Source: Aquabacterium soli
Lineage (GTDB): Bacteria > Pseudomonadota > Gammaproteobacteria > Burkholderiales > Burkholderiaceae_C
NCBI RefSeq assembly: GCF_003933735.1
Contig: NZ_RSED01000002.1
Span: forward strand, 186,001 to 250,000
Reading direction: 5' to 3'
DNA: 64,000 nucleotides
The notes below the pieces were generated by a model. It was not told where the DNA came from, did not search any database, and saw nothing but the letters and a program-made list of their open reading frames with translations. Positions 49,154 through 54,281 of the stretch are shown here, piece by piece. The translations under genes were made by a program, and so were the position numbers. Numbering within the stretch: the first letter of the stretch is position 1; the number at the start of each line of letters is the position of its first letter.

Positions 49154-49783
49154 ATGAGCAATGCGCAAGACCTGAGGCTGGTGATCGTTCTGCCCGTGCC
49201 CTTGTCCGTCGAGCCCGACGACGAGGAGGTGGCAGAGGTCGAGCGCTCCCGCATTCTGCGCATGGCCCTGCTGGAGGCGGGCTTCAACGTGGTGGCCACC
49301 TTGCCTGGCGATCGCTTCCTGCCCGAACGGATTGCGCAGATCCAGCCCGACATGATCGTGGTGGATGCCGAATCACAGGGGCGCGACATCCTGGAACATG
49401 TGGTGATGGCCACGCGCGAAGAGCGTCGTCCCATCGTGATGTTTTCCGATGACGAGGACACCAGCCATGTGCGCCGCGCCATCGCGGCTGGCGTGTCGGC
49501 CTATGTGGCCTCGGGCGTGCCGTCCGAGCGCATCAAGCCGGTGATCGAGGTGGCCATGGCCCGCTTCGAGCAGGAAGAAAAACTGCGCCGCGAACTGGCC
49601 GATGCCAAGAACCAGCTGGAAGAGCGCAAGGTGGTGGACCGCGCCAAGGGCCTGCTCATGACGCGCCAGGGCCTGAGCGAGCAGGAGGCCTACGCGCGCC
49701 TGCGCAAGGCCGCGATGGACAAGGGCATCAAGCTGTCGGAAGTGGCGCAACGCCTGATCGACGCTGCCGACCTGCTGGGTTGA
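49154..49783 (+). CDS. nasT: NasT-type ANTAR antiterminator response regulator
   Basis: A 209-residue protein with an N-terminal receiver-like domain (1-130, Asp71 in MIVVDAES) and a C-terminal ANTAR RNA-binding three-helix domain (145-206, with [23 protein letters not shown] and SEVAQRLI). NasT proteins bind paired hairpins in leader RNAs of nitrate assimilation genes and prevent termination. The leader beginning 92 bp downstream has such hairpins. In known systems NasS holds NasT inactive without nitrate; no signal-peptide-free NasS gene is in the window. Divergent from tsaD over 55 bp. Confidence 0.92.
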
Positions 49784-49848
49784 TCTGCCGTGCGCGGGAT
49801 GTGCACAAAGCACTGCACCACATCGGCGCAAAAAGGCGACCTGAAAGC

Positions 49849-49864
49849 TGGCACAGCGATTGCA
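49849..49864 (+). promoter_or_regulatory. Sigma-54 promoter of nrtABC
   Basis: C-TGGCAC-N5-TTGCA matches the -24/-12 consensus of RpoN-dependent promoters exactly. Start is expected near 49875, a few bases before the first leader hairpin. Upstream, TGCAC half-sites at 49802 and 49814 could bind NtrC but do not form its usual palindrome. Suggests activation under nitrogen limitation. Confidence 0.85.
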
Positions 49865-49877
49865 TAAACAAGGACAA

Positions 49878-49931
49878 GCAAAGTCAACGGCGACTTTGCG
49901 TGCTTTGGGACCCAATGCTGGGTTACCAAGC
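49878..49931 (+). promoter_or_regulatory. Two-hairpin ANTAR-target leader RNA
   Basis: Hairpin P1: an 8-bp perfect stem GCAAAGTC/GACTTTGC (49878-49899) with hexaloop AACGGC. Hairpin P2: an ACCC/GGGT upper stem with hexaloop AATGCT (49914-49919), extended by a lower stem GCTT(T)GG/CCAAGC (49902-49931). Both hexaloops carry A at position 1 and G at position 4, the hallmark of ANTAR binding sites, and are two bases apart. A terminator follows, so this is the nitrate-responsive attenuator on which NasT should act. Confidence 0.85.
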
Positions 49932-49939
49932 TTCCCGAC

Positions 49940-49999
49940 AAAGGTGTCATCGATAGGTCAACTGCGCGTGCGCGGCCGGCCTACCGAGACACCTTTTTT
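49940..49999 (+). terminator. Leader attenuator terminator ahead of nrtA
   Basis: AAAGGTGTC (49940-49948) pairs with GACACCTTT (49988-49996) around an inner TAGG/CCTA stem and G+C arm; a six-T run ends at 49999. It lies 29 bases before the nrtA start, directly behind the ANTAR hairpins, and would stop transcription when NasT is not bound. Confidence 0.85.
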
Positions 50000-50028
50000 G
50001 TTTTCGCAAAACAGGAACGCTTGCCATC

Positions 50029-52474: not shown

Positions 52475-53275
52475 ATGACCCAATTCATCGACATCCAGAA
52501 CGCCGAGATGGTGTTCAACACCAAGAAGGGCAGCTTCCACGCCCTGCGCGAGATCAACCTGGGCATCGACAAGGGCGAGTTCGTCGCGCTGATCGGCCAC
52601 TCGGGCTGCGGCAAGTCCACCCTGCTGAACCTGATCGCCGGCCTGCTGATGCCCAGCAGCGGCGGCCTGATCTGCGACAACAAGGAGATCGCAGGGCCCG
52701 GCCCCGAGCGCGGCATGGTGTTCCAGAACCACTCATTGCTGCCCTGGCTGACCTGCTACCAGAACGTGCACCTGGCGGTGGAGCGCGTGTTCGGCGGCAA
52801 GGAAAGCAAGGAGCAGCTGAAAAAGCGCACCAACGACGCGCTGGAGCTGGTCAACATGGGGCACGCCACGCACAAGCGCCCTAACGAGATCTCCGGCGGC
52901 ATGAAGCAGCGCGTGGGCATCGCCCGGGCACTGGCCATGGAGCCCAAGGTGCTGCTGATGGACGAGCCCTTCGGCGCCCTGGACGCCCTGACCCGTGCCC
53001 ACCTGCAGGACGAACTGCTCAAGATCGTGGCCCGCACGCAGAGCACGGTGGTGATGGTGACCCACGATGTGGACGAGGCCGTGCTGCTGTCGGACCGCAT
53101 CGTGATGATGACCAACGGCCCGGCCGCCACCATCGGCGAGATCCTGAGCGTGCCCCTGGCCCGCCCGCGCAACCGAGTGGAACTGGCCGAGGACCCGACC
53201 TACATGCACTGCCGCAAAGAGGTGCTGGACTTTCTGTACACGCGCCACGGCGTGGGCCACAAGCAGGCCGCCTGA
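52475..53275 (+). CDS. nrtC: Nitrate ABC transporter ATP-binding protein, NrtC/NrtD type
   Basis: A 266-residue ATPase with Walker A GHSGCGKST (41-49), Q-loop Gln84, signature ISGGMKQR (139-146), Walker B VLLMDEP (159-165) and switch His197. Closest to the nitrate/taurine group. It has no extra C-terminal substrate-binding domain, unlike cyanobacterial NrtC, so it is of the NrtD size. Last gene of the operon; 17 bases after its stop begins a second sigma-54 promoter. Confidence 0.94.
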   Translation: MTQFIDIQNAEMVFNTKKGSFHALREINLGIDKGEFVALIGHSGCGKSTLLNLIAGLLMPSSGGLICDNKEIAGPGPERGMVFQNHSLLPWLTCYQNVHLAVERVFGGKESKEQLKKRTNDALELVNMGHATHKRPNEISGGMKQRVGIARALAMEPKVLLMDEPFGALDALTRAHLQDELLKIVARTQSTVVMVTHDVDEAVLLSDRIVMMTNGPAATIGEILSVPLARPRNRVELAEDPTYMHCRKEVLDFLYTRHGVGHKQAA

Positions 53276-53292: not shown

Positions 53293-53308
53293 TGGCACAC
53301 CGCTTGCT
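53293..53308 (+). promoter_or_regulatory. Second sigma-54 promoter, behind nrtC
   Basis: C-TGGCAC-N5-TTGCT is a full match to the RpoN consensus and shares the preceding AAAGC with the nrtA promoter at 49849. Start is expected near 53319. No protein gene follows on this strand before the terminator at 53401-53435. Confidence 0.8.
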
Positions 53309-53318
53309 TTTTAGACGT

Positions 53319-53435
53319 GGGCCCCCGATGTTCGCCAGACCGTCGGGGTCCTCCTCAGCGGGGGTCAGTGGGTCCGCGAAAACTCCACAGACCTCTTTAC
53401 CGCCCTCGGGTCTCATCACCCGGGGGCGTTTTTTT
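53319..53435 (+). ncRNA. Candidate sigma-54-dependent small RNA of about 117 nt
   Basis: Defined by the sigma-54 promoter 12 bases upstream and the terminator at its 3' end. Within it CCCCGA (53323-53328) pairs with TCGGGG (53343-53348), CCTCC/GGGGG (about 53350-53364) can form a second hairpin, and 53375-53400 is mostly unpaired with a GCGAAAACTCCACAGACC stretch that could base-pair with targets. No ANTAR hexaloop pair is evident. No open frame with a ribosome site was seen. An orphaned attenuation leader is the alternative. Confidence 0.6.
53401..53435 (+). terminator. Strong intrinsic terminator after nrtC/sRNA
   Basis: An 11-bp stem CGCCCTCGGGT/ACCCGGGGGCG with one G-U pair and a six-base loop, followed by seven T (53429-53435). 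On the opposite strand there is no T-run, so it serves plus-strand transcription; it ends three bases before the stop codon of the convergent lgt gene. Confidence 0.92.
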
Positions 53436-53438
53436 ATG

Positions 53439-54281
53439 TCATGGGCTGACGGCGGGCTGTTTGGAGGCCAATGCATCGGCCTGGCGCTGCCACACGCCCT
53501 GGCGTGACAGCACCAGGAAGAGCACGCCGGCACCAATCATGGGCACGCACAGCCACTGGCCCATGCTCATGTTCAGTGCCAGAAGCCCCAGGAAATCGTC
53601 CGGCTCGCGGAAGTACTCGGCGATGAAGCGGAAGGTCCCATAGCCGATCAGGAACCAGGCGGCGACGGCACCCAGCGGGCGGGGCTTGCGGCCGTACCAC
53701 CACAGGAAGGCGAACAGCAGCAGGCCTTCCATGCCGAACTGGTAGAGCTGTGACGGGTGGCGAGGATCGGGGCCGGCCGCCGGGAACACCATGGCCCAGG
53801 GCAGGCTGGGATCGGCCAGGCGGCCCCACAACTCGCCATTGATGAAGTTGCCGATGCGGCCGGAGGCCAGTCCCACGGGCACGCAGGGCGCCACCAGGTC
53901 GGCCACCTCGAAGAAGTGCCGGCGGGTCTTCCAGGCGTACAGGGCCATGGCGCCGATCACACCCAGCAAGCCGCCGTGGAAGGACATGCCGCCCTGCCAC
54001 ACCGCGAAGATCTCCGCCGGGTGGCTGAGGAAATGCATCGGCTTGTAGAACAGCACGTAGCCCAGGCGTCCGCCCAGCACCACGCCCAGCACGCCGAAGA
54101 ACAGCATGTCCTCGATCTGCTGGCGGTTCCAGCCTGTCTGCGCATAAGGCGCCTTGCGCGCGCGCAGCGTGGCCAGCAGGTAGAAACCGGCGAAGGCCAC
54201 CAGGTAGGTCAGTCCGTACCAGTGGATTTTGAGGGGCCCCAGTTCGAGGGCGATGGGGTCGATGTGCGGGTGGATCAGCAT
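53439..54281 (-). CDS. lgt: Prolipoprotein diacylglyceryl transferase
   Basis: A 280-residue seven-helix inner-membrane enzyme that transfers diacylglycerol from phosphatidylglycerol to the lipobox cysteine of prolipoproteins. Family motifs are present: [33 protein letters not shown] (catalytic His) and [15 protein letters not shown] (the Lgt signature). Converges with the nitrate operon and diverges from the antiporter gene over 47 bp. Confidence 0.97.

Follow-up and report, generated by a model that had tools for sequence, protein, structure and literature searches.

Comparative sequence analysis indicates that the region between nrtC and the convergent lgt gene in the window (the whole 64-kb stretch of Aquabacterium soli DNA analyzed here) encodes a real, free-standing, sigma-54-type small RNA (sRNA) of approximately 117 nt, which is the representative of a new sRNA family without a match in Rfam at gathering score. 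There is good support for its being a sigma-54-type small RNA with a link to nitrate uptake, and its action on a nitrate-metabolism mRNA (nasB/nirB) is supported as a prediction, the link to assimilatory nitrate/nitrite reductase being good but unproven. We consider it probable, with considerable room for doubt, that this RNA acts in trans from the end of the nitrate-transporter operon to repress translation of assimilatory nitrate/nitrite reductase. If true, this new Burkholderiales sRNA family, present in ten genera of the family sample, would tie nitrate uptake to reduction at the post-transcriptional level, could account for the way in which a reductase operon whose leader is short keeps step with uptake, and would provide a small, concrete pairing in environmental bacteria that is open to testing.

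The genes of the locus are arranged in the order tsaD (minus strand), nasT, nrtA, nrtB, nrtC, sRNA, and lgt (minus strand). They include a nasT-like ANTAR regulator (49154–49783, plus strand; Pfam ANTAR, 4.5e-22), nrtC for the nitrate ABC transporter ATPase (52475–53275, plus strand; NCBIfam TIGR01184, 342.8 bits with a cut-off of 291.8), and lgt (53439–54281, minus strand; Pfam LGT, 2.4e-79). The sigma-54 (-24/-12) promoter of the sRNA, TGGCACACCGCTTGC, occupies positions 53293–53307 on the plus strand, starting 17 bases past the end of nrtC, and was assigned by motif match together with conservation at a fixed spacing. The motifs used throughout are the sigma-54 and NtrC consensus sequences. 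In a search of both strands of the window, exact matches to TGGCAC-N5-TTGC are found at two sites, one at the sRNA and the other upstream of nrtA, where it forms the predicted promoter of nrtABC (49849–49863, plus strand; NtrC-like site at 49814–49830), and AAAGC precedes both boxes. The motif by itself is no proof of a promoter, since 11 matches with up to one mismatch were observed in the window versus 9.2 expected. The RNA itself (53318–53435, plus strand), which was defined by fold, alignment, and covariation, is predicted to start near 53318–53319 and carries the terminator at its end. Folding of 53317–53435 gave three hairpins with −60 kcal/mol (z = −4.3), and none of 200 shuffled sequences was equally stable. 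Hairpin 1 (53321–53350) is variable in sequence with a covarying stem and is followed by a conserved linker that runs into the start of hairpin 2 (53349–53363; UCCUCCUCAGCGGGG), the proposed anti-Shine-Dalgarno pairing seed; hairpin 2 (53360–53396) has a conserved GCGAA loop, and the intrinsic terminator (53399–53435), backed by both fold and covariation, consists of an 11-bp stem followed by seven T. The first-pass annotation had described a full promoter 17 bases behind nrtC, its likeness to the nrtABC promoter down to the preceding AAAGC, and an 11-bp terminator stem with seven T, all of which were recovered here. The terminator is probably shared with the nrtABC transcript, because it is the first one seen 3' of nrtC. 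Only a single copy of the sRNA is present in the 5.4-Mb genome of the window, and the named relatives of the window's nrtC put it close to Aquabacterium.

Within the Aquabacterium-like genus, the sRNA was found by BLASTN in 31 of 42 genomes and, when copies read by hand were included (G218 and G211 among the additions), in 34. For all 34 copies, the gene directly upstream encodes a nitrate ABC transporter ATPase; it is nrtC in 32 of them and specifies a fused two-ATPase protein (641/630 aa) in G225 and G232, the second half of the G232 protein exceeding the cut-off for the nitrate ATPase family. In the 42 genomes, a covariance model recovered 32 copies with E < 1e-15. The genus alignment (A1) comprised 30 copies, L003, a 21-mer matched by chance, and L016, from the genome that also yielded L032, having been left out beforehand, and L033 was identified with G211 by identical contig coordinates. 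In all 30 aligned copies the promoter is present at a constant 60–61 bp ahead of the core CTCAGC; among four further copies read by hand it was kept in three, and G231 has a weaker −12 box. The block CTTCCTCAGCGGGGGTC is nearly invariant in A1, with CCTCCTC in the window and two others. The RNAalifold consensus of this alignment contains 36 pairs, and in its 28 distinct rows 97.3% of the cells are paired and 17 of the 36 pairs have changes on both sides (8, 2, and 7 in hairpins 1, 2, and 3, respectively, corresponding to 8 of 11 pairs in hairpin 1, A1 columns 4–33, and 2 of 12 in hairpin 2). None of 500 shuffles reached any of the five measures of covariation, and no slid register came near; the search for conservation and covariation in relatives, which the first-pass annotation had proposed, turned out in favor of the RNA, all three hairpins covarying. 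Closed frames of at least 10 codons occur in only 4 of the 30 aligned copies, two of which have a 10-codon GTG frame in common, and a small protein was rejected because there is no general frame among the aligned copies, as the earlier reading of the window alone had suggested.

The sRNA was not found in eight of the 42 genomes, five without a close nrtC (G205, G221, G227, G233, and G236, four of which are 53–86% complete) and three with one. In G200 and G033, lgt lies directly behind nrtC with no sRNA between, and G226 (L316) carries a natural deletion in which promoter, hairpin 1, and linker are gone and the terminator alone is left behind nrtC. As a separate observation, one group (L002, L009, L011, L014, L015, and L032) shares a segment, ACCGAGGAGCAAACAGAGGT, between nrtC and shortly before the sRNA promoter, with one base different in L011; pairing of this segment with the sRNA linker and the 3' arm of hairpin 2 is conceivable, which would make it a possible built-in decoy.

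A promoter-plus-linker pattern was matched in 28 of 399 family genomes, representing 10 of 141 genera, and a reversed control pattern had no matches in the same 399 genomes. According to single folds, the terminator hairpin is present in all 28 copies and a hairpin 1 of at least 5 pairs in 27, and 18 copies leave five or six bases of the linker core UCCUCA unpaired, the remaining 10 fewer. The linker consensus is CU[U/C]CCUCAGC[G/A]GGG. None of the 24 copies from other genera, in which hairpin 1 changes freely, departs from UCUCCUCAGCAGGG or from the linker TCTCCTCAGCAGGG; the linker from TCCTCAGC on was part of the search pattern, and its invariance outside the genus is partly by selection. 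In these genera hairpin 2 is much shorter and its loop variable. In the wide alignments A2 and A3, hairpin 1 was misaligned by MAFFT and does not appear in the consensus folds. A stricter pattern matched 4 of 399 genomes in an order sample (12 of them from the window's own family), of which three were not accepted as copies and the fourth was the window itself; this pattern required TGGC and missed G091, a copy found by the family pattern. Among the 26 loci listed for low-score R1 matches outside the genus (L121–L146), seven copies were recognized by eye (L121, L122, L123, L127, L129, L138, and L143). Two other weak model matches, L139 and L146, show UGUCUCCUCCAYCUCCUC ahead of a terminator and are possibly another anti-Shine-Dalgarno sRNA of the family. 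In two genomes from another family of the order (L313 and L314), a sigma-54 box is followed by a conserved stretch ending GGCTCAGCGGGG, perhaps another sigma-54 RNA.

The genomic context of the 28 family copies helps to define what kind of element this is. The upstream gene is nrtC in 21 copies, tsaD in six (with no nrtC within the ~1.5 kb upstream region examined), and neither in L327. Downstream, 23 copies face a convergent fdx or lgt, and five (L330 and L340–L343) have a codirectional gene past the terminator, namely one NDH2-like oxidoreductase and four histidine phosphatases, three of the latter assigned by Pfam and that of L340 by its translated start. In none of the 28 does the RNA run into a gene for nitrate or nitrite reductase. 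In AAP65, the sRNA lies between tsaD and fdx, and nrtABC is located elsewhere, adjoining nirB; the window's tsaD is also at the edge of the nrt locus, and the simplest history may be a relocation of the transporter genes that left the sRNA in place.

The first-pass annotation had offered as an alternative that the element is an orphan, the leader (5' UTR) left behind when a nitrate/nitrite reductase gene (nirB/nasA) moved away, and had noted that homologous copies always leading into such a gene would speak for it. The combination of sigma-54 promoter and terminator does resemble the layout of the nrtA leader in the same locus (49874–50005), which lies downstream of nasT, is made up of a six-base-loop hairpin, another hairpin, and a strong terminator (z = −5.5), and looks like a NasT/ANTAR attenuator from its predicted structure, with no Rfam match at gathering score. 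However, the nrtA leader has the six-base-loop hairpin and leads into nrtA, whereas the sRNA leads into no gene, and the position of an ANTAR/NasT leader, directly before the gene that it regulates, was not found for any of the 28 family copies. Furthermore, nasB leaders are short and different-looking, and the relation of the sRNA to the AAP65 nirB leader is one of complementarity and not of similarity. Because six of the 28 copies follow tsaD rather than nrtC and none leads into a reductase gene, the element is best regarded as a free-standing sRNA, and the orphaned leader was rejected as almost certainly wrong. The -24/-12 promoter conserved together with the RNA, its own terminator, and the lack of a general frame all fit a sigma-54-type regulatory sRNA. 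With regard to known families, Rfam returned nothing at gathering score for the element, either in the window or in 11 relative loci, and membership was rejected on this ground; weak likeness (18–25 bits), mostly in stems and terminator, was detected to ncS54 (described in PMC5688073), ncS037, ar14, and anti-hemB, all under the gathering scores of these families (43–112).

The predicted target was deduced from the linker (CUUCCUCAGCGG / CUCCUCAGCAGGG), whose complement is found in the Shine-Dalgarno region of nasB/nirB. The names nasB (FAD subunit) and nasA (molybdopterin reductase) were assigned in this analysis: the NirB counterpart in the genus is often a ~420-residue FAD subunit, and in the window's genome the gene for such a NirB-like subunit precedes that for a 945-residue molybdopterin reductase, which resembles NasA/NasC/NapA and formate dehydrogenase, scoring under the cut-off in each case; a gene for a NarK-type transporter lies close by. 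The strongest case is AAP65, whose nirB leader is complementary to the linker of a Piscinibacter copy and whose own sRNA was then found by pattern search. Here CUCCUCAGCAGGG pairs gap-free with CCCUGCUGAGGAG over the nirB Shine-Dalgarno site, at which CCCTGCTGAGGAG forms a 13-bp perfect complement with 13 contiguous pairs. A search of the AAP65 genome with the 14-mer at no more than one mismatch gave three matches, i.e., the sRNA, the nirB leader, and one other. The duplex has z = −4.7, and neither any of 300 shuffled leaders nor any of 313 gene leaders of the window's genome was as good.

In Aquabacterium the predicted pairing is less perfect. On inspection by eye, many nasB leaders have a sigma-54-like box and a short 5' UTR as well as an island CCGCTGA-n-GGAGC, which is conserved as CCGCUGA-n-GGAGC in the RNA of most leaders. 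From 34 NasB/NirB-type leaders seen in the genus, 20 align on GGAG, and CCGCTGA and GGAGC are kept in 19–20 of these 20 compared with 35–85% at flanking positions. The island matches UCAGCGG and CUUC/CUCC of the linker, giving 8 + 4 bp around one mismatch that is never repaired. A conserved seed complementary to the start region was found in AAP65 and in 19 of 26 cognate Aquabacterium nasB pairs (p < 0.05 versus dinucleotide shuffles); seven pairs failed, including the weak pair of the window's own sRNA and nasB (p = 0.11). When 22 leaders of the genus, two of them from a paralogue, and the own pair were ranked against 313 background leaders, whose starts were chosen by heuristic, 17 of the 22 ranked 2–13 and the other five 30, 74, 97, 104, and 222 (the last two being the paralogue), and none of 200 shuffled linkers paired as well with the 22 leaders. 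G203 (wrong linker picked), G215, and G211 were left out of this ranking, G231 was entered as lacking the sRNA despite its copy, and the leaders are related, so these counts are not independent. As a control, nrtB leaders ranked 23 to 308 of 313 in the genus, mostly middle or low; nrtB had come out top in two of six named loci and was rejected as a target on account of its poor pairing across the genus. CCGCTG is present in 20 of 28 leaders from genomes with the sRNA versus 1 of 6 from genomes without it (Fisher p = 0.02, the split being tallied by eye and the test ignoring kinship). In G205 and G227 (86% and 71% complete), where the sRNA was not found, the leaders pair as well as the best. 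A compensatory change was looked for and not found in G231, whose nasB leader reads CCGCAGA and whose sRNA still carries CUCAGCGG.

According to the proposed mechanism, the linker would pair with the Shine-Dalgarno region of the nasB-nasA mRNA (nirB in AAP65) and block ribosome binding, so that nitrate/nitrite reduction would be limited while the uptake genes are expressed. Because nasB leaders also show sigma-54-like boxes, the sRNA would be a brake within its own regulon if sigma-54 polymerase reads both partners. It is possible, and clearly less probable than such repression, that the sRNA is a real sigma-54-type RNA whose main targets are other mRNAs, many of which have GAGGAG Shine-Dalgarno sites, with nasB/nirB being minor or incidental. 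Other targets are likely in any case, since the linker is anti-Shine-Dalgarno in general, and several are conceivable because flgL, rather than nasB, is the best-pairing leader in the window's own genome with the 22-nt linker (nasB ranks 56th of 313 with this linker and 9th with the 16-nt core). Moreover, among nine other genomes with both parts, nirB pairing reached p < 0.05 in two (G288 and G081) and not in the remaining seven (G305, G424, G393, G436, G437, G438, and G369), the last of which falls in genus group g94 together with the AAP65 copy. Nevertheless, the 13-bp perfect match at the AAP65 nirB start, the CCGCTGA island that is conserved in Aquabacterium nasB leaders and was not seen in nrtB leaders, and the linkage of the sRNA to nitrate transport genes argue against a merely incidental role of nasB/nirB. 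A mode of action by protein binding instead of base pairing (e.g., sequestration of a regulator by the GCGAA loop of hairpin 2) would agree with the good conservation of hairpin 2 and its loop within Aquabacterium, but appears highly improbable given that elsewhere this hairpin is short and its loop variable while the linker is invariant.

Several regulatory RNAs may be compared with the repressor proposed here. NrsZ of Pseudomonas aeruginosa is a nitrogen-regulated ncRNA with post-transcriptional action (PMC6606865); it activates rhlA, a different target, and the present sRNA has no Rfam match at gathering score. NfiR and NfiS of Pseudomonas stutzeri A1501 are described in the same source as nitrogen-stress ncRNAs, NfiR using an eight-nucleotide pairing with a nitrogen-metabolism mRNA and being expressed at a lower level in an rpoN mutant (PMC6606865). 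The pairing site of NfiR lies within the coding region of nifD, and loss of NfiR shortens the life of this mRNA, whereas the site predicted here is the Shine-Dalgarno region. NcS25 of Burkholderia cenocepacia, also an sRNA from the Burkholderiales, uses a single-stranded seed to cover a Shine-Dalgarno site and repress a gene related to nitrogen (PMC10117139); however, it is 84 nt long, adjoins a porin gene, and targets a porin, and sigma-54 is described there for its target and not for its own promoter. A literature search for 'nirB mRNA' and 'sRNA' gave a single match, on RyhB of Escherichia coli, which is a precedent for an sRNA with nirB as target (PMC7154689) but differs in being an iron-regulated and unrelated RNA. 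Among the literature matches listed, in which subscription journals are thinly covered, there was no sRNA adjoining nrtC and none from Aquabacterium.

The arrangement of the locus also allows a more elaborate scheme. The nrtABC transcript should end at the sRNA terminator, and its 3' end would contain the sRNA sequence, which opens the way to a positional nitrate switch, a rather improbable idea in which nitrate sensing at the nrt operon would be relayed to nasBA by the sRNA lying in its path. In the absence of nitrate, the nrtA leader would terminate, the sRNA promoter 17 bp behind nrtC would be free, and the sRNA would keep nasBA silent, whose short leader shows no attenuator. In the presence of nitrate, NasT would allow RNA polymerase to continue through nrtABC and over the sRNA promoter; this read-through would interfere with the sRNA start or make the sRNA sequence part of the nrtABC 3' end, and nasBA would be released. 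Genomes of the AAP65 type could not use such a switch because their sRNA is unlinked from nrt.

Regarding regulation of the sRNA itself, transcription by RpoN under nitrogen limitation, like the term nitrogen-regulated in the first-pass annotation, is only inferred from the sigma-54 promoter and its context. That proposal held as far as a sigma-54-type sRNA tied to nitrate uptake is concerned; its nitrogen control was not borne out by an NtrC-like site, as none within 400 bp upstream scored above shuffled sequence in the 30 genus and 24 other copies. An NtrC-like site near the promoter would be expected of an NtrC-dependent sRNA such as NrsZ, which depends on sigma-54 and NtrC, and was rejected here because the best upstream scores equaled those of shuffled sequence. 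There is little non-coding room for an enhancer, since the sRNA promoter often begins no more than a few bases from the nrtC stop codon. The upstream regions of nrtA and of the window's own nasB each contain an 11-of-12 NtrC-like match, and some matches of 10–11 of 12, scored without a shuffle control, occur in the 300 bp downstream of the sRNA. Finally, in the Piscinibacter locus L043 (5801–5845), GGCACC repeats lie directly 5' of the sRNA promoter and look like repeated −24 boxes or NtrC half-sites.
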